Assembly: GCF_947623445.1 (NCBI RefSeq)
Contig: NC_135247.1
Span: 1,986,501 to 2,050,500 of the forward strand
Origin: Clavelina lepadiformis
Lineage: Eukaryota > Chordata > Ascidiacea > Aplousobranchia > Clavelinidae
Length of the DNA stretch: 64,000 nucleotides
Reading direction: 5' to 3'
The first letter of the stretch is position 1; every line of letters starts with the position of its first letter. A program made the translations under genes and the position numbers. The notes beneath the pieces are model-generated. The model was not told where the DNA came from and made no database searches. It saw nothing but the letters and a program-made list of their open reading frames with translations. Positions 32,081 through 57,218 of the stretch are shown here, piece after piece.

Positions 32081-32358
32081 ACGACGTACTACAGATGAAA
32101 CCAACACAAGAATCCAATTAAGGCGGCGTGATTATGCGCGAGGCAAACAAGCAAAACAAAGGAATTTCACCACAATGTTTACGGAGAGTCACAAAAATCC
32201 GGTCAGGTTTTCTTGATACGTAGCCTGTGTACTTATGAAGGCAAAAACTCCTATACTTGATGTTGAAGTTCCTGCAGCGGCTTGTTCATGTCGTAGTGAA
32301 AAACAAATCCATTTTCAATTATGGATTTTATTTGTCAGTAGTTTACTCGTTGTCACAG

Positions 32359-32506
32359 ATTCAGTGTCAGTAAAATTCAATCTGACGTCAATGGATTTAC
32401 CTGTACGGTCACTCGTACAGACACGAAAGCTGGTTGGGAACAAAACCCAGTGATCCGCTACAGTGTCGTTGTTGGTACAACGTCTTCGTTGTGTATTCTC
32501 ACATGA
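32359..32506 (+). pseudogene. orphan last exon of an H-lectin-like gene
   Basis: This 148-base segment has the same length and near-identical sequence as coding exon 5 of lectin gene 2 (45249-45396), including its TTGTCACAG acceptor, the GFTCTVTRTD and GWEQNPVIRYSVVVG words, and the extended ending TTSSLCILT. No exons 1-4 precede it. The sequence to its left is instead a second copy of downstream-spacer sequence and then the gag fossil. It is therefore the 3' remnant of a lost cluster member. An AATAAA follows at 32511. Confidence 0.85.
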
Positions 32507-32623
32507 TCAAAATAAAGTATAGTTAATGTCGTAGTGGAAACAGGTCCATTTCCAATGATGGATTTTATAAGCAAAAGGCTGACAGAATTACAGGCCACAA
32601 GCATTCCGTAACTTTGGCCAATA

Positions 32624-33541
32624 CAGTGAGACCTCGTTAATCCGGACCACTTCGTTTCGTCAAAAAATGTCGGTTTAGCGGGGTATCCGGATTATCGGAA
32701 AGTAAAAAATCAATCAATCTTGCAAATGCAGTACCGTGTGCAAAATGCAGTATGCACCTTACTCCAATTCTAAGTACCGACTTTCTGGCTGGACAGCAAC
32801 TAAAATAAAATTATATTTTTTGTGTGATCCGACCCAGTGTCGAACCCCAGAACCACCGTATTTAACACGAATGCTCTAAGCCAGAAGTGACGAACATGCG
32901 GTCGCAAATCGGTTTGACAACCGCTCTTGCATGGCGAAGCATTCCGGCGGGACCAGCAGTCTTGAACTTTCTTTGACCTGTTTCCAATCTTTGCGCAATG
33001 CGATATCAAAAGCTGATAGCACAATTGAGTTGCAGTAGTATGTCTTCAATAGATTGCCGCACTCAACCGATGTAATGTACGTATATTTTTTGCGACCGAG
33101 GAAGCGTTGTTTGTTACTGTTGATGAACAATTTATTTTTTCGTTTCTAAAATACTGTACAGTATTTCATAGTAGGCTATGACTAAAAAGCTGTGCGGCTA
33201 AAATTTTTTACAAAGCGCAATGCTGTACAGTACTGTACTTTTGAATCAATAAAGACCGCAACGTTATTATGCGTAGATACTCGGCTATTGTTTCGTCAAC
33301 TAACTACATAGTGTATTAGAACAATCGTGAATCATTTTCGCTTAACTGTTAATAATCCGGTTTATCGAATTTTATTGCTATTGATTTAGCACATTTGTTC
33401 CAAAACTTTTGTGTCGGAGTCGGACAGCGGGGTTTCCGGATTAAAGGGGTAAATGCATAGGAAGAAATCCGTTCCCGGCAGTTTTGTGTCGGATAACGGG
33501 GACTCCGGTTGTTCGGGGTACGGATTAACGAGGTCCCACTG
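32624..33541. mobile_element. pogo/Tigger-like nonautonomous element
   Basis: Ends CAGTGAGACCTCGTTAATCC and GGATTAACGAGGTCCCACTG are inverted repeats of the pogo/Tigger type, flanked by TA on each side (32622-32623, 33542-33543). The paralogous spacer after lectin gene 2 (about 45511-45517, GGCCAATATTGG) is uninterrupted and gives the empty site. The element is 918 bp with no recognisable transposase. It contains a tRNA-like SINE head on the minus strand near 32822-32886. Confidence 0.9.
32822..32886 (-). repeat. tRNA-derived SINE head nested in pogo-like element
   Basis: Read on the minus strand this gives TGGCTTAGAGCATTCGTG (A-box-like), then GGTTCTGGGGTTCGACACTG (B-box-like), closely matching tRNA-derived SINE heads. 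The right extent of the SINE was not determined. Confidence 0.5.
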
Positions 33542-35197
33542 TATTGGATTTCATTACGTAATTGCATCATTACAGAATAGTCTTCAAATAGGTTTTTAGA
33601 CGACATTATCTGGTTATCGTACAGTGAGGCGAACACCAACAAAAGCGAAAATGCCTTACGAATAAGATTTGGTCGACGCCACCTTGATTTGACGGTCCGG
33701 AAAATAAACACGGTCATGGATAATCAAGATCTCTAGTTTTTGGGCGTGCTCCATCACCCTTCAACACAGGCCAGTTTTGGTTTTATAACTAAAGATTACG
33801 TCAAACTCACTGCTGCCTAAGGCCGGTTATTTCGAAACAAAAATTCACACAATCCGGTTCATGTTTTCAAACTCATAAATGTATAAAGAGCCTAAATGGC
33901 TCAGCGGGTTGAAATAAACCAACACGGGTTTCACCTCCACCCTTCAAAGATTAAACGAGAAGTGTTTGGCGTCTCATTTTCCAAGGAAAGTTGCTTCACA
34001 AACCCTATAAAGAGTAACGTCTCATGTTTCATGGAAAGATGTTTCATGTGCCCTTTCAAATCGACGGTAACAACGACTGTGGAAGCGTATAAACACACCT
34101 GAAGTTATTTAAACTACGAGGCTTCACGCAGTCCTCTATAAGTCTATACAGTTGACGAAAAAAGAAAGACCTTCAACCACGTGCCACCGTGGCTTACCTC
34201 GAACGCTGGGTAACCTACTTACCAATAACCGTTAGTTGAAGCATGAAACAGTTTATAAAAAACGAGAACAAAGCCTTTCCAAAGCGTACGGCAAATGTAC
34301 ACTGTGTGGCAACCACGGAAAACGCAAAAACATGGTCATGAAAACGACATCTATCCCGTCACTGACCCGGGTCATTCACCTTCATCAGTCTCTCACTCGC
34401 CAAGATTTTGATATTTACGCAGCTGCATTTGCCGCTTATGCAACAACAGTCACGTGACTCATACAAAGAACAGTTTTTACAGCAGATCGAACGCGTGTAT
34501 GCTGTAGATGGCTTTCGAAAAAAGATCAACGAAGAATGTCAAGATGACAAGGCAGCCCTGAAAGCCCATTTCTTTTGCTTATCATGAAAAAAACAGGCAA
34601 AATGCAATAAGGTGACATAGTTAGAGCAATTTCAAGGAAGAATGTTCGGTTAGGTAAATGAAGACGGTTGGACAGTGTCGGATATAATGGTGTGAGCTAT
34701 TTACTTGCCGATATAAACCTACTGCAAATTATTATTGACGTCGCCTGCCAATGATTTGCCATTTCTGCTACTCGTAGTGCTGGTGCACTGGCTTCGTCAT
34801 CGTGGTAACGAGCTGTGTGTCCGACAGGAAAGCTGTTCGCCCTGTTCATGTATTTTGTATTTCAGCAGTAAAAATTTATATTTTCACCTGTGAGCTTTCT
34901 TAGGCTCATTTGCCGATGTCAACTATACGCGAGGAGATGACGTAACCACATAAAGAGCAAAGAACAAAAATCTTCGCGCAACCAAAGTTCAAATGAGCTG
35001 GATATAAACAAATTTTAAATGATTTGAAATCAACAAAATTCAGAAGGTTTGAATGCAGGTAAATTCCAGATCGGTTTAAAAATAAAGATCTAAAATTATT
35101 AGAACTTAGATAAATGACCAAGATTCAAAAGAATAGAAAACGGATAGTTTCAAAAACGATATAACAAAAGGGACGAACTGGTTGTGAAACTCTCACA

Positions 35198-35209
35198 GAA
35201 CATTCCAGA
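35198..35209 (+). promoter_or_regulatory. heat-shock-element-like motif, gene 1 upstream
   Basis: GAACATTCCAGA matches the alternating nGAAnnTTCnnGAn array bound by heat shock factor (two full pentamers and most of a third). It lies about 150 bases upstream of the TATA box of lectin gene 1. Confidence 0.45.
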
Positions 35210-35358
35210 CAACATGATATAATGATATCTGGCCTATAGCTGAGCCCAAACAAGTATGCTTCGCACCTCACCCCCCAACCGTAACTATAAAACAATTTCA
35301 ATGACGACACAAGATATTGAGGCGGTGAAATCTTTTCTTTCAATATTGCCTCTAGTGC

Positions 35359-35367
35359 TATAAATAA
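35359..35367 (+). promoter_or_regulatory. TATA box of lectin gene 1
   Basis: TATAAATAA, kept at the same position in gene 3 (50344) and altered to CATAAATTA in gene 2 (43740). A conserved segment with GAGCTCACA lies about 25-30 bases downstream and is the likely transcription start. A 5' UTR donor (GTAAGG, 35413) and acceptor (TTCGCAG, ending 35587) flank a UTR intron in all three copies. Confidence 0.6.
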
Positions 35368-35650
35368 GCCTGGAAACTCTTAGAGCTCACAGAATTGTGG
35401 ACAGTTGACGTTGTAAGGTTTAAATAAATAAATAGATATTTGAGAAAGATTTATGACGAAAAGAAATGTTCAAATGCAATTGCTTCTTGTATAACTGATC
35501 AAAGAGTTAATTAAAACGTTTAAAAAACGACTTAAAAGCAATGTATATTTTGCTTCGTATTGAATTAATTGTTATTTTGTTTCGCAGCTGCTTGGTCGTC
35601 GTCAACGATAGAATTTTTTAAGACAACGCTAGAAATTGTTCTTGCACAGA

Positions 35651-37013
35651 ATGGCAGACATATTACGCGGTATTAGTGTAATTATATAATAAAGGTTACA
35701 TAAATTTATGATCGATGGGAAAACGTGCATGCAAAACTCAATATATTTCGGAGAAGTTAATTTCTTTTTCGTGTCTAGGTGTCCGTCCAATCTTGAATTC
35801 TGAAACGTACGCAAGAGAATTCCGATTGGAATTTCCGGTTCCTTTTACAAGTGCTCCTCAAGTCTCAGCAGAAATAAAGCCAATTAGCATCGGTGACAAC
35901 GTTACCAAGTAAGCACTCGGTTGCTTTAAAACTCTTTTGTATTTAACCAGCTCACTTAATCAAATTTGTTATTTATGACAGTTTTGTTGTAGCGGCGATC
36001 ACTCCTGACGATCAGGGATTTAATTTCATTGTGATACGCGCTGGTCAACAACATTTAGGCTGGCAAGAAAATCCTTTATTATATTGGCAAGCTACTGGAG
36101 AAGAAGTGAAACTACGTACTCCACCAAAATATTTTCTTTTTATAAAAGTACAACAAGCTGTATCGCTGTAGAAAGAATGAAAATAACGCAATTATTAAGA
36201 AAATAAACAAGCTCATAGTTCATTTAAAAAACTTGCATCGTTCAACATTAAAATTAATATTTAAGATTTACAAATATTGCTCAAATTAGAATGAGTAATT
36301 AATATCCAAACAACAGTGTTTCGGTTCTTTAAAACGATCAGATAATTTTAAGTTTAGTTACCTGTAAAGCATCTGTCCTGTTTAGCCAATATAAACAATT
36401 CAAAATGCATTTTAAGTACAGTTATTTTAAAGCTGACTATTTACGTTTCAACTAAGTACGTTACTGAAAAGACTCAATTTCCAGAACACAAGTCGTTTTA
36501 TAGCACTGTGTTTTGTAAAACTGTCAAATTTCTTCTACAGCAAATGCAACTAATTTTTCACTTTGTTATTTTTCTTGTTTCAATATCTCAGCATCACCGA
36601 GGAATTCTGGAGCTCAGAAAGTTGGTACCTCGCCAACCGACTCCTTGACAATACGAATTAATTTTTTGGAACCGTTGTCCAGAACTCCAACGATTATCGC
36701 TTGGGTCAGAGGAGCCTTCCGTTTCCAACAAACGTAAGAGTTTTACGGAATATTTTGTTAAAACGCAAGTTTATTTCTGTGATAACCTTCGATGATTAGT
36801 TTTTTTGAAGAACTGGCTTTTTTAACTCACCAAGCTCCTGTGTTCCAGCTTTTATGATTTTAAATTTATACGTTTACTCGTTGTCACAGATTCAGTGTCA
36901 GTAAAATTCAACCTGACGTCAATGGATTTAGCTGTACGGTCACTCGTACAGACACGAAAGCCGGCTGGGATCAAAACCCAGTGATCCGGTACAGTGTCGT
37001 TGTTGGTAAATAA
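35651..37013 (+). CDS. two-domain H-type-lectin-like protein, gene 1
   Basis: Five coding exons: 35651-35669, 35779-35908, 35982-36115, 36592-36733, 36890-37013 (182 residues), all GT-AG and in phase. No signal peptide follows MADILRG, so the protein is cytosolic or leaves by a nonclassical route. Two tandem domains resemble the H-type lectin fold (Helix pomatia agglutinin family). Domain A has EFRLEFPVPFTSAPQV, then GFNFIVIRAG, then LGWQENPLLYWQATG. Domain B has LTIRINFLEPLSRTPTIIAW, then GFSCTVTRTD, then GWDQNPVIRY. A GWxxxP motif recurs in each domain. Domain A spans exons 2-3 and domain B exons 4-5, with matching intron positions, which points to internal duplication. Known H-type lectins bind GalNAc or Gal; that activity is inferred here. 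AATAAA lies at 37081. Intact and probably functional. Confidence 0.75.
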
Positions 37014-37543
37014 TTATGGAAGCTTATACGGCCTGACGACTTAATTATCTAAACCTTCTATTTAATCGGATGTGTATTACAATAAAGAAATTTTTCTGAG
37101 TTGTGGCCCTCCTTGTATTATCAGTATTTCTGTTAAATCTTTAATAAACCTAAAGAATATTTATATTTTGTGTGTCAATTTATACAATTTGTTTTCAAGT
37201 TATTTAAGCTTCTCAGTTTAAGCGCCAGTGCAGCGACGTATAACAAATGTCTTACACAAGTCCAGGCAAGACAAAACAATTTGCGCATACAATCTCCAGA
37301 AATCCGTTTAGATTTCCTTACAAATTTAGGCCCAACTGACGGGCGCTGATTAACTGGGTGTAAAATGCAATGATATGTGCGCTTTGTCATCACCAAGTGT
37401 TTAAATAAGTTATCTGTAAAGGGCTTCTTTGTCTCCGTGCAGCGTCATAACTGCTACATTACTGAGCGTAATACCCAAGTGTGCTGATTAAGATGTGGTT
37501 ATTTACCAGTCATTGTTAAGTTTAAAGTCATGCAATCATCACG

Positions 37544-37556
37544 GAACATTCCAGAA
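37544..37556 (+). promoter_or_regulatory. perfect heat-shock-element-like motif in spacer
   Basis: GAACATTCCAGAA is an exact GAAnnTTCnnGAA array. It is retained in the duplicated spacer at 52535-52547. It lies downstream of gene 1 and upstream of nothing coding on the plus strand for 6 kb, so its target, if any, is unclear. Confidence 0.4.
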
Positions 37557-38438
37557 CGATGTAAGAGAAAAAAGCTGATTTAATTACATATAGTTGAAAG
37601 AAATAGAGACCAATTTTAGAAACAGACAAACTACAATTATGCTGCCGTCCACATCAAGTGTATATCTGTATTTTCTTTCTAAAACAACCGTTGTAGAGAA
37701 TGCCCTCTCACACAGATAACTCGACGGTTAAAACATCAGCAATTAGTAGGCTGTTTTCGATAACTCACTGCATACGGTTGATACATTTGGCACCACCGAC
37801 CAATAGGTTAGTTTCACTCCCGCTAAGGTTTGGAATGTTTGTACCGATACAGTAACAGCACAGTAAGCATCTCGTAATTTCAAGTGGGTGTTATGAATTT
37901 ATGATGCAATAAAGCTACTGCTCAAACACAGGTTTAGTAACGATAGCAAAAAAAGACATGACAAATCACAGTATGACAACAGCAAGTGACGTTAACGAAC
38001 AAGTCAAAGTGTTTAAACAGTTAAAGCAAAGCACGAACTTAAACATTATTACAAACAAGCGAGGACTTTGAACTTAGCAAGTGTGATATTTGAAATAATT
38101 TTGGTTATTTTTGTTCCTGCAGACTGCAAACTGGATGTAGCAAAACTTTAATTGAAATTGAAATACAAATTTTGTTATTGTGTTACGGGATTTTTTTATG
38201 CACCCGTTTTAGAACCATCACATTGTACACTGTTTGTTCACACCACTCTTAAAGGTTAATTTAATCAAATGTGTGGGTCAACTTCTCTTTTTATTCGCAT
38301 TGTGTCATTTGTATGCTTGCTCGTCAGGTTTTCGTATATTTGCTCACGTGCTGCCGCATTTTACCTATTCTTATGTAGGCCTACACATGTTTTTAGTCGG
38401 TTTCTTGTGACGTCTTACATCGCTACCCCTAGGGCCTA

Positions 38439-38492
38439 AGTGGCGTTTAGCGTCCCGCGTTTATTTTCTCAATGCGTGACAGCGGTGGAATC
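38439..38492 (+). repeat. tRNA-derived SINE head (probable)
   Basis: AGTGGCGTTTAGCGTCCCGC followed by a TTTATTTTCTCA loop and a CAGCGGTGGAATC end matches the layout of a tRNA-derived SINE head with a degenerate B box. It interrupts the region between two copies of a CCTGCAGACTGCAAACTGG word (38115 and 38693). Confidence 0.45.
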
Positions 38493-39150: not shown

Positions 39151-42110
39151 AGCAATTTTTTCAAACCCCAAGAAACAAAATTTTCCAAGGATTTAATGTT
39201 TAATCGGTAAATTTAAAGATGAAAAAAAATTAGATTATAAGAAAATATAACAATTAATACAGTATAATTATAAATATAGCAATGAATAAAAATATACTGA
39301 CTATGTGAGTGAGAGTTCCACTGATAACAACTAATCATACGAAGCTCGCAACAAGATTAATACAACACTGCTAAATGTCAGATGTGTGCTGGTCTATTTT
39401 GATCAACTGGATCTCAATTAAAAATTTTAAATGAGCAGGTGAGCAGCATGAGCAACGAGCAATGAGCAGCATGAGTCAACGCTTGGGTTTGTAGACGTGA
39501 CGTAACACCAATTCACGCCAAAAAAGGTAAGCCTACTTTCTGACGTATCGGGTACGTCGAAAGAAATACAAAATTTGGGGTAAACTGGGTGACGTCACGT
39601 CTACACACTCCATGCCAATGAGGACACAGCCAACCGACAAATATTTCTTAACCCAAGACACAATCATTAAACTTTTGTTAATCGATAACGTGGAGTGTTT
39701 GTTGCCAGATTTTAGACTATAATACCTTTTGGGTCTGGCACTTCCTGGCCGATTGTTTTCCAAACAATATGTTACAATATAACGCATTGGCAATCCAACG
39801 GTCAAATTTTCAACTTTACTCCATGAAGCAACTCCTAATTGCAAATCTACATTGCCAAAGCGGTTTAATTGTATCGAATGACGTGACACACACCTCATGC
39901 ATTTACAAAATATTGTTAGATTTTAATATAAAATTATGAACAAATTTCAGTCAACTTTGAAATGAATAGCAAATATCAAACATTTTCTATGATGAGGTCA
40001 TATATGATGGCTCATCATAACTAAAATGATCTTTGATGAAACGTCACCTAGTATTTTACATTTTTATACAATCTACAGTGACCTGTTCAAGATGACGTGA
40101 CGTAATCTGCCAGCACAGAAGTGGCTTCCCAGCCATCAGAGCATATACTATCCACGGACCAATCTGCTATTTTCGACACTAAAGAATTCACTTCCCAATA
40201 GAAAGACAATTTTGAGCCGGCATCGATTCGACCGGCCGGCGATTGTGACGATGTCGCTGCACTCAAAGCGTCATATTAAAAAAACTAAGAAATTTTCCGG
40301 TCTAATGCGCATATGACGTCGATGTGGACTAGTTTGTTACTGTTTTGGCGATAGCTGGTTGCAGATCTAGACTAAGTTGTAAATTTGGTGTGGGTTTGTT
40401 TTTTTTGTATTTTGGAGTGTTTGTCCTAAAATTTTAAGCTCAAAACTTGCTGTTAAATCTTAGGTAGTTGTTATAGAAAATTGAGTACAAGAATTTTGTC
40501 CAAATTAAGACTGTAGACAGTCATAGCTTAGATCTCGTTGCAAGCCAAACTTCAACGGAGGTTTATGATGTGGTTTTGCGACAGTGATGTCTTGATTTAA
40601 TGTACTTTGAATTGAAAAGCCAATCTCTTTGAATTGTGTCGTGATCCCTAAAAAGGAGTTGTCCGATTGCTTACTAATGACAATGTCGTTATTACTAACT
40701 AGTAAACCATTTCATGTCGTAGTGTCCTTTCACCGAAAAAATGAGTTGTAGTTGCATACAAGATGTATTGTAAGTATCAGTGTAATGGGTTTTAATGGAG
40801 GCTTGTTAGCAGTTAGGAAGCTCCCTCTAGTGGTTGTTGGTAAAAGGTTATCAGTATTAATTAGAGATGCTTGTTTGGTTTTGTTTGCTTTACGAGTTAA
40901 ATGCGCGTGTATATGTTATGGGTAAAATGCTATCAGTGTAAATTTCGTCTTTAAAAATGCTGCCAGGGTAGCAGGGCAAACAATTACAACAATCCTTTTA
41001 GAATTTAGACGCTTGATTCAAAAAGCAAACAAAACAAACACGCACCTCTAATTATACCGATAACATTTCACCAACATCCACACCAAAAGGAGAATACTTC
41101 ATGCTAAATGCTAACATATCTCCATTGAAACCCATAACACGACAACTACTGTTAAAGTGGTAGGTGCCGAATTGTAGAATGTGATGTTAGTTGTAGGGTA
41201 TCTGTACCTATATCAAATAGTACCTACATAGGGATGTAATATTGATGAAAGTTTCGCACGGCCGTAATATTCAGATTTCCATATTTTATGTTATACCTAA
41301 AAAGATACAGTATGTGTGGTGAAATAGCCAGGCTGTTATAGTCGTTCTGCAAAAAAAAGGGAGTGGGGGAAATCCCCTCCGAAAATTCAAAGATTTAGCT
41401 AAAGTAGAAAAAGGAAAGGACTGACAGTTTGACGTAATCGTGGTTCATCGGCTTTGCTTTGATATCTGTTAAAGCGTCAATGGCCATTCAATTATTTACG
41501 TCTCAACCCGATAAAATATGTAAGGTTAATTGTAGTAATTTCTAAAGGTTGTTACATTTCGAATGCTTGTCTCCCAAGATCACGTGCTCTCACGTGATGC
41601 TGACGCCTTACCAATGTTTCCTAAAAGTTGCACCCAACAGATTAACGCCACAATTTGCAAATAACTTTGTAAACGGCATGTCGCAGAGCTAACTTAGCTG
41701 TAAATAAGCAAACGACTTTACTACAGTTTTTGAGTAAATAATGTAGTTTTGGTATTTGGGTAGCGAATGTATGTTCAGAATACTTTTTCATGTTTATCTT
41801 GCATAACTATACTGCACTGCAAAGTGAGTTTGTTTAAGAGATTTTTGTAAACATTTCAACTGGACTCGATCCTTGCAATGACTGGTTTTGTTAATTGCTT
41901 GTCAAGAGCCCACTGTTTAGCTAAAGATTTAATTTTGAACTTATCGGCCACACTCCCAGCATTTATGTTATGAAAAAGTATAACAAAGTGATATCTATAA
42001 TGTGCAAAATTTAAACGGCACACTTCGCTAAAAATGGTTTACGCAGAAAAAAAAACTAGCATAAAACCACAGACTGCATCAAAGCGTTCAGAAAATACAA
42101 AAAAGCAAAC
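39151..42110. other. intergenic between lectin units
   Basis: No gene with recognisable homology. It contains a short array of GAGCAGCATGAG-like units (about 39430-39476) and the 360-base foldback element at 40781-41140. A minus-strand open frame at 39898-39533 (121 codons) shows no family resemblance and no splice context. Confidence 0.5.
40781..41140. mobile_element. foldback/MITE-like element with ~110-base arms
   Basis: The left arm 40781-40891 and right arm 41021-41140 are diverged inverted copies. Left TAATGGGTTTTAATGGAGGC matches the reverse complement of TCCATTGAAACCCATA. Left TTATCAGTATTAATTAGAG matches the reverse complement of CTCTAATTATACCGATAA. Left TTTTGTTTGCTTT matches AAAAGCAAACAAAA. 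A roughly 130-base centre separates them. No clear target duplication was found and no coding sequence. Confidence 0.7.
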
Positions 42111-42144
42111 ATGGAAGCTGAAAAGTTTTTAAGTAGTTTTTGTA

Positions 42145-45100
42145 ACCGGTTATACCTGAACGAAAATTCACACAATCCGGCTCATATTTTTAAACTCATA
42201 AATCTAAGAAGAAGCAAAATGGCTCAGCAGGTTGAAATAAACCAACACGGATTTCACCTCCACCCTTCAAAGATTAAACGAGAAGTGTTTGCCGTCTCAT
42301 TTTCCAAGGAAAGTTGTTTCACAAACCCTATAAATAGTAACGTCTCATGTTTCATGGAAAGATGTTTTATGTGCCCTTTCAAAAGATCGACGGTAACAAC
42401 GACTGTGGAAGCGTATAAACACACCTGAAGTTACCTAAACTACGGGGCTTCCCGCAGTCCTCGATACAGTTGACGAAAAATAAAGGCCTCCAACTACGTG
42501 CGACTTACCTCGAAAGCTGGGTAACATACTTACCAATAACCGTTAGTTGAAGCACGAAACAGTTTATAAACGAGAACAAAGCCTCTCCAAACCGTACAGC
42601 AAATGTACATTGTGTGGCAACCACGGAAAACGCAAAAACCTGGTCATGAAAACGACATTTATCCTGTCACCGACCCGGGTCATTCACCTTCATCAGTCTC
42701 TCACTCGCCAAGATTTTGAAATTTACGCAGCTTATGCAGCAACAGTCACGTGACTCATACAAAGAATAGTTTTTCCAGCAGATGGAACGAATGTATACTG
42801 TGTTATATACATGTATACTGATGTATACTCATGTGTACGCATGTATACGCACGTAGTAGATGGCTTTCGAATAAAGATAAACGAAGAATGTCAAGATGAC
42901 AAGACAGCCCTGAAAGCCCTTTTTTTGCTTATCATCAGAGCTTTATCATGAAAACAAAAACAGACAGAGTAAAATGCAACAAGGTGACGTACTTAGAACA
43001 ATTTCAAAGAAGAATGTTCGGTTGGGTGAATGAAGACCGTTGGAAAGTGCCGGACATAATGGTGTGAGATATTTACTTGCCGATATAAACCTAAAGGAAA
43101 ATATTGTTGACGTCGCCTGCCAATGATTTGCCTTTTCTGTTACTCGTAGTGCTGGTGCACTGGCTTCGTCATCGTGGTAACGAGCTGTGTGTCCGATAGG
43201 AAAGCTGTTCGCCCAGTTCATGTATTTGGAATATTTTGTATTTCAGCAGTAAAAATTTATATTTTTCACCTGTGAGCTTTCTTAGGCTCATTTGCCGATG
43301 TCAACTATACGCGAGGAGATGAAGTAACCACATACAGAGCAAAGAACAAAAAATCTTTGCGCAACCAAAGCTCAAATGAGCTGGATAAAAACAAAATTTA
43401 AATGATTTGAAATCAACAAAACTCAAAAGGTTTGAATGCAGGTAAATTCTAGATCGGTATAAAAATAAAGATCCAAAATTATTAGGACTTAGATAAATGA
43501 ATAAAATTCAAAAGAATAGAAAACGGATAGTTTCAAAAACGATATAACAAAAGGGACGAACTGGTTGTGAAACTCTCACAGAACATTCCAGACAACATGA
43601 TATAATGATATCTGGCCTATAGCTGAGCCCAAACAAGTATGCGTCGTGCCTCACCCCCCAACTGTAACTAACACAATTTCAATGACGACATAAGATATTG
43701 AGACGGTGAAATCTTTTCTTTCAACAATACCTCCAGTGCCATAAATTAGCCTGGAAACTCTTAGAGCTCACAAAATTGTGAGACAACTGACGTTGTAAGG
43801 TTTAAATAAATATATGGATAGTTGAGAAAGATTTATGACGAAAAGAAATGTTCAAATGCCATTGTTTCTTATATAACTGTTCACCGAGTTCTTTAAAACG
43901 TTTAAAAAACGACTTACAAGCAATGTATATTTTGCTTCGTATTGACTTAATTGTTATTTTTTTCGCAGCTGCTTGGTCGTCGTCAACGATAGATTTTTTT
44001 AAGACAACGCTAGAAATTGTTCTTGCCCAGAATGGCAGACATATTACGCGGTATTAGTGTAATTATATAATAAAGGTTACAATAAAGTTATGATCGATGG
44101 GAAAACGTGCATGCAAAACTCAATATCTTTCTGAGAAGTTAATTTCTTTTTCGTATCTAGGTGTCCGTACTATCTTGGCTTCGGAAACGAACGAAAGAGA
44201 ATTCCGATTGGAATTTCCGGTTCCTTTTACAAGTGCTCCACAAGTCTTAGCAGAAATAAATGCAATCGGTGACAGCTTTGCCACGTAAGCACTCAGTTGC
44301 TTTAAAACTCTTTTGCATTTAACCAGCTCACTTAATCAAATTTGTTATTTATGACAGTTTTGCTGTAAACTCGATCACTCCTGACGATCAGGGATTTAAT
44401 TTCATTGTGAAACGCACCGATCAACCAACTTTGGGCTGGGACGAACATCCTTCGTTAAATTGGCAAGCTACTGGAAAAGAAGTGAAACTAGGTGCAATAA
44501 AAAAGTATTTTCATTTTGTAAAGTATAACCAGTAGTATCGTTTCAAAAATAATGAAAATAGTGCAGTTATTAAGAAAATATACACGCTCATAATTCATTT
44601 AAAAAACTTGCATCGTTCTACATCAAAATTACTATTTAAGTTTTACAAGTATTGGATAATTGCATAATTGGAATTTGGTGATCAATATCCAAACAACAGT
44701 GTTTCGGTTCTTTAAAACGATCAGATAAATTTAATTCTAGTTAACTGTAAAACATCTGTCCTGTTTAGCCGATATACACAAATCAAAATGCATTTTAAGT
44801 ACAGTTATTTTAAGGCTGACTATTTACGTTTCAACTAAGTACGTTACTGAAAGGACTCAATTTACAGAACACAGGTCGTTGGAAAAGTGTCAAATTTCTT
44901 CTAAATGCAACTATACTTTGTAAGTTCTTTATTTTTTTTGTTTCAATGTCTCAGCATCACCGAAAAATTCGGGATCTCATAAAGTTGGTTCCTCGCCGAA
45001 TGCCTCCAAGACATTACGAGTCAATTTTCCGATACCGTTGTCCAGAACTCCAAAGATCGTCGCTTGGGTCAGAGGAGCGTTCCGTCTCCAACAAACGTAA

Positions 45101-45180: not shown

Positions 45181-45396
45181 ACTTTTTACCAATGTCCTGT
45201 GTTGCAGCTTTTATGATTTTAAATTTATACGTTTACTCGTTGTCACAGATTCAGTGTCAGTAAAATTCAATCTGACGTCAATGGATTTAGCTGTACGGTC
45301 ACTCGTACAGACGCGCAAGCTGGTTGGGAACAAAACCCAGTGCTCCGCTACAGTGTCTTTGTTGGTACAACGTCTTCGTTGTGTATTCTCACATGA
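44032..45396 (+). CDS. two-domain H-type-lectin-like protein, gene 2
   Basis: Five coding exons: 44032-44050, 44161-44284, 44358-44491, 44955-45096, 45249-45396 (188 residues), in phase with canonical splice sites. Same start MADILRG and domain plan as gene 1. Domain A reads EFRLEFPVPFTSAPQV, GFNFIVKRTD and LGWDEHPSLNWQATG. Domain B reads LRVNFPIPLSRTPKIVAW, GFSCTVTRTD and GWEQNPVLRYSVFVG. The last exon reads past the usual end and adds TTSSLCILT, an ending shared only with the orphan exon at 32359. Exon 2 is two codons shorter than in gene 1. AATAAA lies only five bases after the stop (45401). Intact; sugar binding is inferred from the fold family. Confidence 0.75.
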
Positions 45397-46417: not shown

Positions 46418-48018
46418 TTTCAAACTCTGGGTCTCAAGCCTTTAAGTTTGGGGTCGCAAGCCTTTTTTCTGGAGGTTGTAATGTTTTTGATGATTGGGTG
46501 TATTTTTTAACTTTTTTTGAAGGAAATGAAATTGTTAAAACTGGTTTGCAAAGAATTGAATAGTTTTTGATAAGTCTTTTGCTGTACAATGCTCTGCAAC
46601 AGTTTAAGTGGGGCCAGTTGCATTTTTTGAGTTTACTAGTGAAAACGGCGTTCAATTATTAAATGATAAAGACATAATATTATTGTATAGATTAGCCGTA
46701 GAGGACTGTTACCATCTCATTTTAGCGTATAGTGCTTTTTTAATTTTGTAGTACTACTGTAGTTTTTTTACTCGTTCTTAAAAAATGGGCAAAAAGAGGT
46801 CTCACACCGCTAAAATGACGTCTCATATCAACACATGTTAGCAGAGGTACTGCTAAAGCGGTGAGGTGCGAAGCATACTTGCCAGGGCTTAGTTATAGGC
46901 CAGACATCATGTGATGTTGTTTGGAATGTTCTGTGAGAGTTTGACAACCAGTTCGTCTCTTTGTATAGTGGGTTTTAACAATGGAAGACTGGACCGGCCA
47001 CCTTTGTTCAATTCTCAATCAAATTAAGTCAAGTCAACAGTCTAACAATATTCACCACTTAGCGTCAGCAAAGAGTAATTGAGCCATAATCCTGCACTTT
47101 ACCGCCAAATATCGAACGTGCATGTCATAGACATATCATGTCATCTAAAAACCTCTTCTCTTGATCGATTCAGCTTTTTGAAGACTATTCTGTAATGATG
47201 CAATTGTTTTACTGCTTTCTACAGATGGAAGAATATCATTTGTGTAAGAATAATTGTGCTTGTAGGTCCCCAAAGAGAAACAATCTTCTAACAACAACTT
47301 AACGCAATGGTTTTTTTTTATCAGTGCAATCAATGAACGCGAATGAAGGAGAAGGAAACCATATTTAAAATAAGTTGCACCACAGTATAAGAAAAATTAA
47401 TTGCTTTGCTTCTTATCATGTGCTCAAATGCTTCGGCCGGGTTTTACACCCTCGTGGTGAAATTGTGTTAGTTGGGTCGTGAGGTGCAGGTGTATAAACG
47501 TTGTGTAAATATGTGGTGATCTTATTTATAGTGACGTTGTGCTGGTGAATTGCACCTCAGTTATAGTCCAGGGGTACTCAGAGGGGAAACTGCAGCTAGT
47601 CTAGGCGTAAGCAGAACTTCAGTTCCCCCGGTTCAATTGTTGTCTATTCCCCATTCCGACCATTACTTTTCCGAAATCTTAAGCGGTATTTTGAGTTGTG
47701 CAAGCAGCACTTTTCTTGTAAAACGTTGTTATACGGTTGGTTCTGAAAACTAGCAACTGCAGCAGACTTTTAACAGTTAGTCTTAAGTGAAAACCACTTA
47801 GTCATTTTTAGGAATGTTAATTGATTTTATGGTGCCAAGCAATGTACAGTGTTTGTACATTATATGATAAATAGACTTATTTATTTCAACCTTTCATACA
47901 TCACACTTGCCTTATTTATAATCGTACATGTGTACATAACTGCATTATTTTGGAAGGGTGTCGTCAGGTCCCCTTCAATTGCTAAAAGGACCGCGGTACA
48001 AAAAAGGTTAAAAACCAC
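46418..48018. mobile_element. hAT-like composite insertion in duplicated spacer
   Basis: Left edge CAGTTTTCAAACTCTGGGTC and right edge GGTTAAAAACCACTG are both hAT-type ends. TTAGATAA occurs on both sides (46409-46416; again just right of the CACTG end). In the paralogous spacers at about 35110 and 43490 the sequence ACTTAGATAAATGA is continuous, giving an empty site. The two ends resemble different hAT groups and the interior contains inverted pieces of a local repeat (46858-46990 and 47190-47470), so this may be several insertions. No transposase recognised. Confidence 0.5.
47190..47470 (-). repeat. local repeat S, inverted copy
   Basis: Reverse complement of the units at 48210-48600 and 49130-49520. 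Shared words (plus orientation of those copies) are CACATGATAAGAAGC, ACTGTGGTGCA and CATTGCGTTAAGT. No conserved reading frame. Confidence 0.7.
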
Positions 48019-48049
48019 TGAATTAGATAAATGACCAAAAATCAAAAGA

Positions 48050-48600
48050 ATTGAAAACTGAGAGTTTCGAAAACGATAAAACAAAAGGGCCGAACTGTTT
48101 GTGAAACTCTCACATAACATTCCAGACAACATCACGTGATGTCTGGCCTATAGCTGAGTCCAAGCAAGTATGCTTCGCACATCAACGCCCAACCGTAACT
48201 GACACATATTCACCACGAAAGTGCAAAACCGGGCCGAAGCATGTGAGCACATGATAAGAAGCGAAGCAATTCATTTTTCTTACACTGTGGTGCAGCTTAT
48301 TTAAATATGGTTTCCTGCTTTTTCATTGGCGTTCATTAACTGCACTGATATAAAAACCATTGCGTTAAGTTTTTGTTAGAATATTGTTTCTCTTTTGGGA
48401 CCCACAAGCACAATTATCGCGCGTTATTAGTTTACAAAATATCAAGTCTACTCCAGATCGAATCTTGGTTCTCCATAAAAAAGAGATGGCCGTATTTTCC
48501 TTGGCGTCGCACAAGCTTGAAGAAAATGTTAGTTCCCACTTTTAAATCCTATGTTTGATTTAACTAAATGACATTGCAAGAAAAAATGTTTAGAACTTTG
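48050..48600 (+). repeat. local repeat R+S, direct copy 1
   Basis: Starts with a segment shared with the spacers upstream of genes 1 and 2 (GTGAAACTCTCAC, CATTCCAGACAACAT, GCCTATAGCTGAG, AAGTATGCTTCGCAC) and continues into unit S. Repeated about 930 bases downstream. Confidence 0.75.
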
Positions 48601-48979
48601 CAAATAGTCAGTGTTTGTTATTTTGTTTTTCAAAAATAGCGCAGGTAATCCCTCAATGCATTTGCTGTACGAGTCAGATTATGACATTTTGAAAGTATTA
48701 GAAAAGTCTGTTAAAAACTTATATTTTTGAGCTTTATTAGGATCATTTGCCGATGTCAACTAAACACGAGTATAGAAGCCGTAACCACATAAAGCATTAA
48801 GATTACAAGATATTTTGCACAACCATAATTTCAAATTAACTGAATGAAACCAAAAATCGCATGCTTTGAAAACAACCGAATTCAAAAGATCTAAATATTG
48901 GGAGATTCCATTTCGATGTAAAGAATAAATAGTTAAAAGATTCTGGTGAAAGACCAAAATACAAAAGAATCGAAAACGG

Positions 48980-49520
48980 ATAGTTTCGAAAAGGATAAAA
49001 CAAAAGAAACGAACTGGTTGTGAAACTCTCACTGAACATTCCAGACAACATTACGTGATGTCTGGCCTATAGCTGAGCCCAAACAAGTATGCTTCGCACA
49101 TCAACGCCCAACCGTATAACTAACACAAATTCACCAAGAAGGTGCAAAATCCGGCCGAAAAATATAAGCACATGATAAGAAGCAAAGCAAATTCATTTTT
49201 CTTATACTGTGGTGCAACTTATTTAAATGTGGTTTCCTTCAACTTCATTCACGTTCATTGACTGCACTGATAAAAAAAAACATTGCGTTAAGTTGTTGTT
49301 AGAAGATTGTTTCTCTTTTGGGACCTACAAGCACAATTATCGCGCGTTATTAGTTTAGAAACTTGTAAGACCACTTCAGATCGAATCTTGGTTCTGCATA
49401 GAAAAGAGATGGTCGTATTTTCCTTGGCGTCGCTAAAAACCTAAAGAAAATGTTACTTCTCAGATTTAAAGTTTGATTGGATTGAATAAATGACATTGCA
49501 AGAAAAAAATGTTTAGACTT
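48980..49520 (+). repeat. local repeat R+S, direct copy 2
   Basis: Second direct copy of the unit at 48050-48600, with small indels. It contains a GAACATTCCAGA heat-shock-element-like motif at 49034-49045. Confidence 0.75.
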
Positions 49521-50290
49521 TTACAAATGGTCAGTGTTGGTTATTTTGTTTTAAAAAAAAAAGAGCGCGGGTTTTCCGTCAATGCATTTGCTATGTCACT
49601 CCGATTATGACATTTTGAAAGTTTTGTATGACATTTTGAAAGCATGTCGGTATTTGCATTGTAGTTTTTGAAAACTGAGTAACTCTGGGCAACGTACATA
49701 GTATTTTTCATTTTTTTATGCTTCAGTTTTATCAAGTTTATTCGTATAAGTAAACTGACTCAAACAACTTACTAATTTTCTTTTGAAAGTTTGGTGGTAT
49801 TTCGCTTTTAAATAACCCAATGGTTTCAAACTCAGTAGTTCGAGCGCAAATTCTTGCTTTGTGCAGACTGTCTCCTTTCCTTATTGGTTGTCTGTTATGA
49901 CGTCATGCGCTCACAAATGCTCAGTTTGATCGAAGTTGATCAGCACAGGTTCAAACCGATGCACAGTTTGCAATGAAACCGGTTATATATCTATAACGTT
50001 TACTGTGGTTGAGAAAACATATTCATCGGAGCTGTTCTGCTTGTGGACTAGCTTTAAATTTTTAGAAATGTATGTGTACATAGGTAGTTGAGGAAAGTTG
50101 CCACTAGTAGTGTTCTGGGCAACGCTTGCGAGTGTGTTGGCGTGCGACTCACATAGCACAAGCATAATGTCATCAGCAGCAGATAATCGTGATGGCAAAT
50201 CTTTTTTCTTACCTATTGCTAAGACCGCGTATATAAGGGAGCAACCAATCCCCAGAAATCAACAGACTTGAGGTAACATTTGAGCCTCAA
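49521..50290. other. spacer upstream of lectin gene 3
   Basis: Unique AT-rich sequence. No gene or repeat recognised. The spacer shared with genes 1 and 2 resumes only at about 50290, just before the TATA box. Confidence 0.5.
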
Positions 50291-50343
50291 TGACGACATA
50301 AGATATCTATCTTATGCCCTATCTTTCAATATTGCTCCAGTGC

Positions 50344-50352
50344 TATAAATAA
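50344..50352 (+). promoter_or_regulatory. TATA box of lectin gene 3
   Basis: TATAAATAA followed by GCCTGGAAACTCTTAGAGCT, the same core promoter as gene 1. A UTR donor GTAAGG and the acceptor TTTCGCAG (ending 50572) are kept. Confidence 0.6.
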
Positions 50353-50636
50353 GCCTGGAAACTCTTAGAGCTCACCGAATTGTGAGACAGTTGAGGTTGT
50401 AAGGTTTAAAAAAATATATGGATAGTTGAGAAAAATTTATGTAGAAAAGAAAATTTTTAAATGCCATTGTTTCTCATATAACTGTTCACCGAGTTATTTA
50501 AAACGTTTAAAAAGCGACTTAAAAGCAATGTACATTTTGCTTCGTATTGATTTAATTGTTTTTTTTTCGCAGCTGCTTGGTCGTCGTCAACGATAGAGTT
50601 TTTTTAAGATAACGCTAGAAATTGTTCTTGCACAGA

Positions 50637-51985
50637 ATGGCAGACATATTACGCGGTATTAGTGTAAATATATAATAAAGGTTACTATAAAGTTATGATC
50701 GTTCAGAAAACGTGCATGAAAAGTGCAATATATTTCGGAGAAGTTAATTTCCTTTTCGTATCTAGGTGTTCGTACAATCGTGACTTCGGAAACGAACCAA
50801 AGAAAATTCCGATTGGAATTTCCGGTTCCTTTTACAAGTGCTCCTCAAGTCTTAGCAGAAGTGATTGCAATCAATGACAGTTTTGCCACGTAAGCACTCG
50901 TCTGCATTAAAACAATTTTGTATTTAACCGGCTCACTTAAACAAATTTGTTGTTTATGACAGTTTTGCTGTAAACTCGATCACTCCTGACGATCAGGGAT
51001 TTAATTTCATTGTGAAACGCACTGATAAACCAACTTTAGGCTGGGACGAATATCCTGTAATAAATTGGCAAGCTACTGGAAACCAAGTGCAACCAGGTGC
51101 AACAAAAAATATTTTCATTTTGTAAAAGCATAACCAGCTGTATCGCTGTAGAAACAACGAACATAACGCAGCTACTAAGAAAATAAACAAGCTCATAGTT
51201 CATTTAAAACACTCGCAACGTTCTACATAAAAAGTATTATTTAAGTTTTACAAGTATTGTATAATTGACATTGAGTAATCAATTTTCAAACAACAGTGTT
51301 TCGGTTTTTGAAACGATTAGAAAAATTTAAGTCTAGTTACCTGTAAAGCATCTGTCCTGTTTAGCCAATATACACAGATCAAAATGAATTTTAAGTAGTT
51401 GTATTAAAGCTGACTATTTACGTTTCAACTAAATACGTTACTGAAAGGACTCAATTTACAGAACACAGGTCGTTTTTTAACGCCGTGGTTTGTAAAATTG
51501 TCAAATTTCTTCTAAATGCAACTACTTTGTAAGTTCTTTATTTTTCTTGTTTCAATATCTTAGCATCACCGATAAATGCTGGATTTCAGAAAGTTGGTCC
51601 CTCGGATACTAACTCCTTGTCATTACGAGTCAGTTTTTTGAAACCGTTGTCCAGTGCTCCAAAGATTGTCGCTTGGGTCAGAGGAGCGTTTATTCCCCAA
51701 CAAACGTGAGAATTTTACCTAATATTTGGTTAAAACTCATTTTAGGTATGATGGTAACTCCCTGATGATTAGTTATTTTGAAGAACTGACTTTTCAACTC
51801 ACCAAGCTCCTGTGTTTAAGCTTTTATGATTTTAAATGTGTACCTTTACTCGTTGTCACAGATTCAGTGTCAGTGAAATTCAACCTGACGCCATGGGATT
51901 TAGCTGTAAGGTCATTCGTACAGACGCGCAAGCTGGTTGGAATCAAAACCCAGTGCTCCGCTACAGTGTCTTTGATGGTAAATAA
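50637..51985 (+). CDS. two-domain H-type-lectin-like protein, gene 3
   Basis: Five coding exons: 50637-50655, 50766-50889, 50963-51096, 51564-51705, 51862-51985 (180 residues), canonical and in phase. Start MADILRG. Domain A has RKFRLEFPVPFTSAPQV, GFNFIVKRTD and LGWDEYPVINWQATG. Domain B has LRVSFLKPLSSAPKIVAW, GFSCKVIRTD and GWNQNPVLRYSVFDGK. It ends like gene 1 and lacks the extension of gene 2. Domain B has several private substitutions, including a changed loop before exon 5 (FIPQQT). No signal peptide. Intact. Confidence 0.75.
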
Positions 51986-54900
51986 TTATCGAAGCTTATA
52001 CGACCTGACGACAAAATTATCTGAACCCTCCATTTAATCGGATGTGTATTACAATTAAGAAAATTTTCTGTGTTCTGGCCTTCCTCAGATTATCAGCATT
52101 ACTCTTCTAATCAGCAATTCTGTTAAATCTTTAATAAACCAAAAGAATAGTTATATTTTGTGTTGCAAATTTTACAAATTGTTTTCAAGTTATGCAATTT
52201 GCTCAGTTTAAGCGCCAGGGCAGCGGCGTATAAGAACATTTTCACACAAGTCCAGGCAAGAAAAAACAATTGGCACACACAATCTCCGGAAATCCGTTTA
52301 GATTTTTTATACAAATTTAGGCTTAACTGACGAGCGCTGATTAACTGGGTGTAAAATGCAATGATATGTGCGCTTTGTCATCACCAAGTGTTTAAATGAG
52401 TTAGCTGTAAAGGGCTTCTTTGTTTCCTTGCATCGTCATAACTACTACACTACTGAGCGTAACAGCCAACTGTGCTGATTATGGTAAGGTTATTTACCAG
52501 TCATTGGTAAGTTTAAAGTCATGCAATCATCACGGAACATTCCAGAACCATCGTTGGATCCAAATTCATGTACACTTGGTTCTGTGCCAGACAAACCACA
52601 ATTATGCCGCTATCCACGTCAAGTGTATATCTGTATTTTCTTTCTACAACAACCGTTGTAGAGAATGCCCTCTGACACAGATAACTCGACTGTTAAAACG
52701 TCAGCAATTAGTTGGCTGTTTTCGATAACTCACTAAATGTAGTTGATACTTTTGGCACCACCCACCAATATGTGTTCAATGAGTTGATTTTACTCGCGCT
52801 AAGGTTTGGAATGTTTGTAACGATACAGTAACAGCACAATATGCACGTCGTAATTTGAAGAGGGTGTTATTATGCAATAAAGCTACTGCTCAAACACGTG
52901 ATTTGTAACGATAGCACAAAAACGACATGACAAGTCAAAATATAACAACAGCAAGTGACGTTAACGAACAAGTCAAAGTGTTTAAACAGTTAAAGCAAAG
53001 CATGAACTTAGTGGAACATGAAGTGGAACTTAACATGTGTGAGATTTGAAATTATTTAGGTCATTGTTATTCCTGCAGACTGCAAACTGGACGTTGCAAA
53101 ACTGTATCGCTAAACAAAGTTCCACAAACAAATTTCTTGCTACATATTTCCAAATTCTGCTGGGTTGGGATCGGATGATTTGAGTCTTTATCCATTATAG
53201 TCTAAGCACAAGTCAGGAAACAAAACCGCGCAAAATGTACAAAGCACGATAGCCTTGAATTGGAACAATTCCAAAAACAAGCAGTTCTTAAATGAAAGAG
53301 TAGTTGTCTGTAAATACACAGGCTATAAAGCAGACCAACCAGTTTCAGAAAATCACTGTCTTAAGACAACATTTGAACACTAACAGAAGACATGGTGGTA
53401 GACAACGGATAGACATTTGCCTGCAACATCACAACGTTTTGTTACATGTTGGCGGGTTTTTGCGCGTGACTGTAGTGTTGTAGGTGTTAACATTGCTCTT
53501 TTATGCTTAAGTAAATATGACTGACTTATGTACTGTATTGGTTTTAGCCACACATTTCCTATGCAAAACCCGCAGAAATGCATCATGCTTATTGCTTACT
53601 TCTAAAATCTATGCGAGAAACAAAACCCAAAATTTTGAGAGTCTAGTCTAGTCAACAAGTCCAAAAACAAGCTGGTCTTAAATCAAAGAGTAGTTGTCAG
53701 TAAATGCACCGGAGAAAGTAAGCATTTTAAAAACATGTCATGGTAAAGCAAGCAATTATGGTCAAATTTTTATCGAAAATTTTTCGTTTATGACGGAGAT
53801 AGCATGCATTTTGGCTTCATCATATTAAAAAACCTCGGTTGATGATTGTATTATGTTGTGCTTATTGTTTCTCCGATTTCTATTTAACTCAAGCTTGGTT
53901 TATTCTAAATATGCGACCCGGTGACTTTGGTTGCTGTAATCATTCGAGACCTCATGCTACTGTACTCTGCGCACCAAAGTGAGCCATGATTAGTCAGACA
54001 ATGAATTCCAGTAGTTAATACAAATCCATAGAAAATTGGAAATTTTGCAACACAACGATTTCCTACTTTCACGTAGCACACAATAATCCTTCTTAACATA
54101 GATTTATTTGGTTAAAAAAACTTCCAAACCTGTCCGGTACTAAATTGATTTGATTGGTTTGGTTTCGCTTAACGGTTAACCCGACGCACCAACATGAGAC
54201 TTGTACTAGACCAGGAGAATAACAAAATTGAGCTTTTACTCTTCAACCACGTATCTACAAAATAAAGCATGATCAAAATTCAACGGATAAGTGTGTTGGC
54301 TGGAACGTCGAAATCGCCATTATTTAAATCGAGTTAGCAAATAAAGTAGCCCACTGAGACATTATGCTACCGTTCAGGGGCGTATCAAGATACACACGGG
54401 CCCTTAAGCAACTTTCTGTGATGAGCTCCTGTAATTTGGAGTTTTCCTGCAATTTTCCTATTTGTAGATGTGATTTATTAAAACAAATTATACACATAAT
54501 TTTAAACATTCATTGCCGTTAATTAAATGCACACTGCAAGCAAGTATGACTCAACGAAAATGGATTATCGTCAACAATAGGAATTGTTGAAACGCGAACC
54601 TTTTTCTTTCAGCTTGATCAGATCGGCTATAAAAAGGCTGGGTTAATGGCCAATAATCAAGAGTCTTAGGACAACAGTTGAGCCATTAAGTAATGGGATA
54701 ATAACGCAAGTGTCAAAGATACCGCAATAACTTATCCTTACGATATAACAGGCGATTGGGGTAATGCAAATCAGGAAGTTAAAGTTTATGTTATACTTGC
54801 TTACTGTATGGCATATGTTGAAGTTTACGTGCTTTCGTTGATAAAAATCGTTGCTATATTTGTAGAATACAGTGCCCAAAAAGTAATACATTTCTTTGCT

Positions 54901-55530
54901 AATAATCAAGTTGAGTTGGTTTGCAATTTCCATCTGAGTTGTTTTTCGGAATTTTATCCTTAAACTATTGCGCATATAGTTATACAGTAAAGATATAACT
55001 AATGTCATAATGTGATATAGCTTAACGTTAAAATTCGTTGTTAAAAATTTATAACTTTATGTCACGCTGGACATGTGTAGGCTATGTTGGTCGCTGTTAA
55101 ACATCATGGCTTTAGCGCGGATAAACATTTGTAAATGCATTCAAATGAACATGAGCGATAAGCATCTTTTGAGATTGGTTGCTCTAGCGACCGCGAGTAT
55201 GGGCAGGTAATAATGTCAACTGAAGCAATGGGATTCACATTACAAAAAGCAGCCCTGTTATCAAGTCCAGAAATATTTTGAGCTCACAGAAGTGTAGGAC
55301 AGTTGTATCATGCAAAAGCTGGCCTAAATCTGACCACGTTGTACAATTAGAACGTGCAGTAAAAGAAATTTTAGAAAATAAAACTCATATTTAGAAGCAG
55401 TTTTTACTTTTTTTGTAAACTGATTTTACTGTTATTCGTTAACTTTATTAGCAGTTTCATTTTGTGGTCAACGATCGCATATTTTAAAGTGTAGCTCACA
55501 CGAAACGGTGAAAGAAATACTTCAAAGAAA
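51986..55530. other. spacer between lectin genes 3 and 4
   Basis: The first kilobase duplicates the spacer after gene 1, including a perfect GAACATTCCAGAA motif at 52535-52547. A 60-base segment near 53262 (CAAAAACAAGC, GAGTAGTTGTC) recurs at 53660. The remainder to 55530 holds no gene I recognise; the minus-strand open frame at 55008-54643 has no homology. The likely 5' UTR of gene 4 lies near 55275 (GAGCTCACAGAAGTGTAGGA resembles the leader of the other copies). Confidence 0.5.
52535..52547 (+). promoter_or_regulatory. perfect heat-shock-element-like motif in spacer
   Basis: GAACATTCCAGAA, the duplicate of 37544-37556. It has been kept without change while flanking bases differ. Confidence 0.4.
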
Positions 55531-57218
55531 ATGGCAACACAGCAAGGTAGTGAAATGCTTTGCAAAGTATCAACCTTATCAGTTTTTGAGTTATTTGATT
55601 TCTATGTTTAAGTTAACTTCACCGACTTTGTACTTGACTACGTAAACGCACCTACCGATAGTGATGATTTGTGCAGTGATTCAACCGGTGAAAGGGCGCG
55701 TTTGGTTAATAATGCATTTTTAGTTAAACTAAGTTCAAGATACGATCGTGTTTTTTCAACATTTGCGCTATAGCTGTATCTTGTGGGAGGATTAAAGTAT
55801 TGGAAAATATTTTAAACCCACCTGCATTCCTGGGAAACAGCCCAGCATTAAAGGTTAAATTAATAGAAATAGTCGCATGGAGTCTGCCGCAGTAGTCAAA
55901 TTTACTGATGACAACAATTACGCGTATTCACCACGAAGGATACGTTCCACAGTCAAGGCTTGATTTCATTCTCAAAACCCATTGGATGTTTATTTTTAAA
56001 GGATCGCAGCTCCTCAGTTCATCAGAGACCAATACAAAGGAATGGCGATTGGAATTCCCCATCCCCTTTAAACTTGCTCCCAAGGACGTATAAGTAAACG
56101 TGGTGGGAAGCCCCCGATATCCGGACAAGTAAAGATTTACTGAATTCTCTCATTGTTTTAAATTATTCTATAAACATCTTGACGCAAAGTAGCTTAAACT
56201 TGTTGTTTATATTTTGTTTTGATTGATAAAATATCTTTTTCTTTTTATATAAAATATATATATATATATGCTGCTTATTAAAGGTTTCAAGTTCAGAGTG
56301 TGGTTGCTGATGAGCAGGGGTTTGACTTTGTTGTGAAGCGCACCGACAATCCAACCAGCGGTTGGGGTCAGAGTCCCACTTTAACCTGGGTCGCTGTGGG
56401 AGAGGAAGAGGCAGAACCGAAAGGTTTAATTTTTTACTTGACATTTCTTAGTGGCGTTTTAAACTTAGGGCAATTTTTGACCTATCAGTTCTACCCACAA
56501 TAAATGGCGAAAAAGAAATAAAACTGGTCTGAACAAGTTGTGGAATAAGCAGACAATTCAAGACCCACGATTTATGGTTCTGATTAACTTAAATTAGAAC
56601 ATACATCTAAAAGCAATAAAAAGGTTAACAGTTATTATAGTACCTTCGACGTCATTATACGCATCATTCATTTCACATGCATCCACTTATGAGCTCAAAT
56701 CCGTATAGAGAGGAAAGCACAGAGAAATATTGGCCACGTAACAGTTTGGTAATCTCACAACGTTGGAGTTCAACGCAAACATCTTACTTATACATGTGAT
56801 AGATCAAAGTTACAACATTATAAATATAACATGTTGATTGTAGGTTCGCAGAACATCGGCAGCTCGGAATTTGAAAACTTGCAGGTACGAGTCAATTTCA
56901 TGAACTCACTGCAGAAAGTTCCAAAAGTTTACGCTTGGGTTAGAGGATCGTTCCAATACCAAGACACGTAAGATATTACTTTTGCGTGAAAAGCGTAAAA
57001 CTGTGCTTTACGTAAGCTTAAATCACGATAACAGGTTTCCAAATTAACTGTTTTACGTCTTTAAATACACTTTTCGGTTTCTTTGACGTCACAGATTCAA
57101 AGTTTTTGGAATCAAAGCTGACGTCAACGGATTTAGCTGCACAGTCAAACGCACGGACAAGAGTCATGGGTGGGGTCAAAACCCCACGATCTACTACAAT
57201 CTGTCTGGTTGCGAATAA
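55531..57218 (+). pseudogene. H-type-lectin-like gene 4, diverged, one in-frame stop
   Basis: Exons 55531-55546, 56002-56128, 56284-56423, 56844-56967, 57095-57218 join in phase and would give 176 codons. Start MATQQG. Domain A has EWRLEFPIPFKLAP, GFDFVVKRTD and GWGQSPTLTWVAVG. Domain B has LQVRVNFMNSLQKVPKVYAW, GFSCTVKRTD and GWGQNPTIYYNLSG. A TAA at 56091-56093 interrupts exon 2 where relatives have a sense codon; the frame continues cleanly after it and all splice sites are intact. It may be a recent pseudogene, a null allele or a sequencing error. It is the most diverged plus-strand member and its GWGQ(S/N)P motif fits both domains best. Confidence 0.75.

Follow-up and report, generated by a model that had tools for sequence, protein, structure and literature searches.

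Tandem genes for probable leaderless, two-module H-type lectins in the ascidian Clavelina lepadiformis, with moderate evidence of diversifying selection

What do the clustered, closely related genes in one stretch of the Clavelina lepadiformis genome encode, and why do their products differ? The stretch analysed here (hereafter the window, 64,000 nucleotides, C8:1986501-2050500, with C8 taken as chromosome 8) carries between positions 32339 and 57218 three intact five-exon genes (copies A, B and C), a two-module gene that bears a stop (copy D), an orphan exon 5 and a remnant on the reverse strand. The exon structures put forward in the original prediction, namely three intact genes, one near-intact gene, an orphan exon and a reverse-strand fragment, were thereby recovered. 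Relatives were sought across 209.06 Mb of genome in 95 contigs. In this genome connexins, which mark chordates, gave 54 matches. Searches for GH6, expected in a tunicate, and for COX1 gave none; the GH6 result counts against a tunicate, but small exons can escape such a search and no control genome was matched either. From sequence comparison and fold prediction we consider it fairly probable that the three intact genes encode glycan-binding proteins that lack a leader and evolve under diversifying selection, with recognition or defence as their probable role.

The three intact genes lie on the forward strand and share one plan. Copy A (35651-37013; exons 35651-35669, 35779-35908, 35982-36115, 36592-36733 and 36890-37013) encodes 182 amino acids and ends in VGK. 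Copy B (44032-45396; exons 44032-44050, 44161-44284, 44358-44491, 44955-45096 and 45249-45396) encodes 188 amino acids with a longer C-terminus, and copy C (50637-51985; exons 50637-50655, 50766-50889, 50963-51096, 51564-51705 and 51862-51985) encodes 180 and ends in DGK. In each gene the frame is open across all five exons, GT and AG border all four joints (twelve in all), and the intron phases run 1-2-1-2. Exon 1 encodes MADILRG, exons 2 and 3 the first of two H-type lectin modules, and exons 4 and 5 the second, so that each module is encoded by two exons, split by a phase-2 intron and bordered on the outside by phase 1. Both modules of each of the three genes carry the GWxxxP motif claimed for the tandem domains. 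An alternative open frame across exon 5 was dropped as non-coding, because homologues fix the other frame. A third module after exon 5, suggested by a GTAAAT in A and C, was likewise dropped, as 20 of the modules listed reach a stop within ten codons.

Taken alone, A, B and C score 19.1, 19.1 and 17.6 bits against the Pfam H_lectin profile (PF09458), below its cut-off of 24. They are, however, homologous by family-profile searches to paralogues that exceed it. Paralogous stretches of several modules reach 93.9 and 54.4 bits and further paralogues 32.1 and 27.0 bits; two single modules stay below, at 17.7 and 18.9. For one module, fold prediction gives an H-type beta sandwich that matches the Helix agglutinins, discoidin II and the coral lectin SLL-2. 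The claim of H-lectin-like domains is supported by the paralogues' Pfam scores and by this fold match, the outcome of the structure-prediction check proposed with that claim. One family profile (A1) was built from 44 of 68 spliced modules, chosen by hand. With profiles built here, which include some window sequences, the half-modules of the window gave E values of 3e-11 or better, and the family profile found 91 genome matches at E up to 1; together these exclude a chance resemblance. In 44 genomic module sequences the glycine and tryptophan of GWxxxP are invariant (44/44), and the proline is kept in 40.

Other searches returned little. The PF09458 profile found no match in the genome, and none in the control genomes either. 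Pfam scans of A, B and C gave H_lectin and weak unrelated matches, with no discoidin domain. Sequence searches of the PDB gave no useful match with copy B and none with the family profile, and one other module gave only Rab9 entries (E 0.014-0.089), apparently by chance. Taken together, the profile and fold comparisons support the assignment of A, B and C as proteins of two tandem H-type lectin modules.

For the putative sugar site we compared the modules with Helix pomatia agglutinin (HPA), whose contacts to N-acetylgalactosamine (GalNAc) we take to be Gly24, Asp26, Arg63, Trp83, His84 and Tyr89. A profile-profile alignment to a three-row H-lectin alignment has a significance of only 10.5% and covers HPA residues 34-79; it places common F, P and GF residues in register and sets module position 42 opposite Arg63. 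Across the 44 modules that position is R in 20, T in 15, K in 4, N in 3 and I and Q in one each, and in A, B and C it is T or N. By eye, extrapolating past the aligned part, the Gly24 and Asp26 positions hold G in 22/44 and S in 43/44, and the HPA Trp83-Tyr89 loop is where R61 (42/44), D63 (42/44) and GW67-68 (44/44) would fall. Where the snail agglutinin has its sugar-contact loop, the family thus seems to have a conserved loop of its own with an RxD...GW pattern, and the ligand need not be GalNAc.

The window genes belong to a large family, with 79 paired modules in the window and the fetched stretches. About 0.3 Mb away, at C8:1699320-1734631, seven near-identical two-module genes follow one another on the minus strand at intervals of 5.2-6.2 kb, and their second modules differ by 0-2%. 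Upstream of the first of them (about C8:1701560-1702935) we also observed a ATGCTGCAGCAAAGTGAG-like motif spaced at about 105 nt or multiples of it. Eight further two-module genes, one with a stop, occupy C8:1.738-1.779 Mb, and other clusters lie at C8:16.47, C4:5.41, C4:17.44, C6:5.76 and C7:18.65 Mb. At C8:16.656-16.679 Mb there are runs of 11 and 14 modules, each on a single strand; from spacing and phase, each run would be one gene. Automatic splicing of these runs left one stop in the first and ten in the second, all ten beyond the eleventh module. Unlike the 20 modules that stop within ten codons, the reverse-strand remnant and the genes at C8:1.739, 1.751 and 1.756 Mb have second modules that extend further. 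Second modules on C4:17.442, C6 and C7 may run into an additional exon.

A tree of 62 modules, which leaves out duplicates, modules shorter than 78 residues and the first module of D, places the first modules of two-module genes from both chromosome 8 clusters in one clade (local support 0.956) and the second modules in another (0.875). The two-module gene therefore predates its clusters. In the first run, seven of the eleven modules cluster with one another (0.984), so at least one run expanded on its own. Within the window the tandem unit repeats head to tail, 33823-37008 matching 42146-45367 at 86% and 35298-38150 matching 50287-53106 at 84%. Arrays, flank matches and tree alike bear out the picture of a growing tandem family. 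Present-day homogenisation, also suggested, is not the prevailing pattern in A, B and C, whose modules differ by 10-17% at coding sites and whose codon positions 1 and 2 differ more than non-coding DNA; the seven-copy array does look recent. Nor are the introns merely close to the exons in similarity, as had been proposed: in the 5' half of A and B they are the more similar, with 105/109 and 71/73 identities in introns 1 and 2 against 109/124 and 113/134 in exons 2 and 3.

To assess selection we compared ratios of nonsynonymous to synonymous substitution rates (dN/dS) between modules less than 30% different, a list that lacks 11 modules without a splice joint, among which are the first modules of D and of the seven-copy array. 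Two of the six A/B/C comparisons, uncorrected for their number, are well above 1, namely A-C module 1 (2.78, bootstrap 0.002) and B-C module 2 (3.38, 0.006), and the other four give 1.28, 1.24, 0.82 and 0.66. Elsewhere in the family dN/dS is 0.33-1.48 in pairs 5.8-18% different and 0.18 to about 0.54 in pairs 18-30% different. A, B and C are better described by a site model that allows a positively selected class than by its null (twice the log-likelihood difference 7.87, chi-square p 0.020; reached in 6 of 400 null simulations); the model assigns 64% of codons a dN/dS of 2.5 and 36% one near 0. At codon positions 1 and 2 there are 83 changes over 358 sites, a higher rate than the 175 over 1029 sites of non-coding DNA (p=0.012). 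Exons 1-3 are more changed than nearby non-coding DNA (p 0.009), exons 4-5 are not (p 0.65), and all exons together give p 0.085. A bias of changed residues towards loops was sought in module 2, and no enrichment was found. These tests leave gene conversion unmodelled. They amount to moderate evidence of diversifying selection on A, B and C.

The chief alternative is relaxed constraint. On this view the copies are recent tandem duplicates on their way to becoming pseudogenes, with a dN/dS close to 1 and no role that selection maintains. Several results speak for it. The maximum-likelihood dN/dS under the one-ratio model M0, 1.41 over 179 codons, is indistinguishable from 1 (p=0.17). D carries a stop, the orphan exon and the reverse fragment are debris, and broken relatives lie at C8:1651170 (frame) and C8:1753716-1753385 (stop in module 1). 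The main point on the other side is that the frames and splice sites of A, B and C have stayed intact through 111 exon changes, with a probability of 0.012 that no stop would arise. The exons, moreover, show a single indel, which is 6 nt long and keeps the frame, while non-coding DNA has 52 gap columns, and neither the codons held near 0 nor the excess at codon positions 1 and 2 is what drift predicts. We regard relaxed constraint as rather unlikely, the foremost rival though it is.

The start of the proteins bears on two other rivals. MADILRG has no hydrophobic stretch, and no signal peptide appears in the gene models, as judged by hydropathy with no dedicated predictor run. Since the start codon is placed in this tiny exon, A, B and C probably have no leader. 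Five other genes have similar short first exons (MPTEK, MSTEK, MTTVT, MIRRE and MTSEC), each ending at a phase-1 GT. Counting A, B and C, such an exon is found at 8 of 33 listed first-module places, some of which are not true gene starts; several have other first-exon candidates, a few of them hydrophobic. An upstream exon might instead encode a signal peptide, making these ordinary secreted two-domain H-type lectins. A good acceptor, TTGTTCTTGCACAG, does stand one base before the ATG in A and C, and nearly so in B, where it could join such an exon, and longer hydrophobic candidates precede a few other genes, for example that at C4:5409665. The same acceptor would equally serve spliced-leader addition, which occurs in tunicates; other members have five-residue first exons with no acceptor directly before the ATG, and two C4 neighbours agree in theirs (MPTEK and MSTEK). 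An overlooked signal peptide strikes us as improbable. The proteins might also be structural or adhesive lectins of tunic, egg coat or larval glue, with no part in defence. HPA is an egg-albumen protein, and the runs of 11 and 14 modules, if single genes, resemble multivalent cross-linkers. The lack of a signal peptide in the gene models would be odd for a matrix protein, and we hold this role to be unlikely, if less so than a hidden signal peptide.

If A, B and C are leaderless lectins under diversifying selection, each product would be a protein of about 180 residues folded as two tandem H-type beta sandwiches, either cytosolic or exported by a leaderless route like that of discoidins and galectins. 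Two linked modules would make it a divalent, cross-linking glycan binder. Tandem duplication would provide the copies, and their proteins would then change more quickly than expected. Duplication with fast protein change suggests changing target glycans, on microbes or on other individuals, as in defence or self/non-self recognition, and a defence or recognition role is consistent with these data. More speculatively, we entertain as a tentative possibility a chordate-lineage repertoire of multivalent H-type lectins that lack a leader and have a remodelled sugar-contact loop (RxD...GW), tandem-amplified and diversified by positive selection, that would recognise glycans inside the cell or after unconventional export, those of microbes or those used in allorecognition by a colonial ascidian.

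Copy D (56002-57218, forward; exons 56002-56128, 56284-56423, 56844-56967 and 57095-57218) has an in-frame TAA at 56091-56093 within exon 2 and retains exons 3-5. No convincing exon 1 was found for it, two candidates about 0.9 kb upstream being unlike exon 1 of A, B and C; its second module is, in the tree, sister to that of the gene at C8:1765222. The orphan exon 5 (32359-32506, forward) encodes the end of a second module with the long C-terminus, has its stop at 32504-32506, and is a remnant of a further tandem copy. Its flank matches the 3' side of B at 94.7% (32341-32623 against 45231-45514) and at 83.7%, a 918-bp insertion excepted. This TA-flanked insertion (32624-33541), presumably pogo/Tigger-like, has inverted CAGTG...CCTCGTTAATCCG ends, splits the flank of the orphan copy and does not occur beside B. 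One 3' end is common to A and C and another to B and the orphan exon, and the switch between them inside the last codons accounts for the two C-termini. The two proposed versions of exon 5 hold for these four, and D ends instead in SGCE. The reverse-strand remnant, a second module (39168-38794; exon 4 39168-39046, exon 5 38922-38794, open frame to 38686), belongs to a different subfamily and is sister in the tree to the gene at C8:1.738 Mb. Upstream of it, at 39700-39760 on the same strand, lies a short piece of sequence, from exon 3 and intron 3, that by eye matches that gene.

Around these copies we observed fucosyltransferase exons on the near side of the cluster (21667-24059, reverse; C-terminal domain of glycosyltransferase family 10, GT10, 154 bits, and GT10 N-terminal domain 29.3 bits against a cut-off of 28.7) and, just before it, a transposase fragment (29768-30319, reverse; Pfam DDE_Tnp_1_7, 117 bits) that we take to be of piggyBac type. 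Between B and C (47250-49625) there are direct repeats, 48030-48699 and 48949-49625, and an inverted repeat at 47250-47473.

Animal H-type lectins have been little characterised. A search of the open-access literature, subscription papers not being covered, found no earlier report of this family. With its many two-module genes, runs of up to 14 modules, recent amplification and signs of selection, it would be a test bed for ligand change in a lectin fold. It would also be a candidate set of recognition proteins in an invertebrate chordate, and A, B and C are three natural variants that make ligand diversification testable.

The agglutinins of Helix pomatia and Helix aspersa, like other snail H-type agglutinins, are secreted and have one module, whereas A, B and C have two. 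The residue opposite HPA Arg63 is arginine in fewer than half of the Clavelina modules, and is replaced in A, B and C; the loop from Trp83 to Tyr89, for which the contacts are those assumed above, is apparently RxD...GW here, beyond the aligned part. Discoidins I and II of Dictyostelium carry an N-terminal discoidin domain, which A, B and C lack in the Pfam scan, and SLL-2 (3wmp) is a 94-residue chain of a single module. The C-terminal lectin-like domains of R-pyocins and phage tailspikes belong to the tips of bacteriocin or phage fibres, and PHROGs gave weak matches only (best E 0.0064). The rotifer and mollusc H-type lectins are of the same family as the Clavelina proteins; in the portion of the source drawn on here, those of rotifers have a single carbohydrate-recognition domain after a signal peptide, the family is described as not expanded in molluscs or brachiopods, and gastropods combine immunoglobulin-like and H-type domains (HREPs) (PMC8878817).
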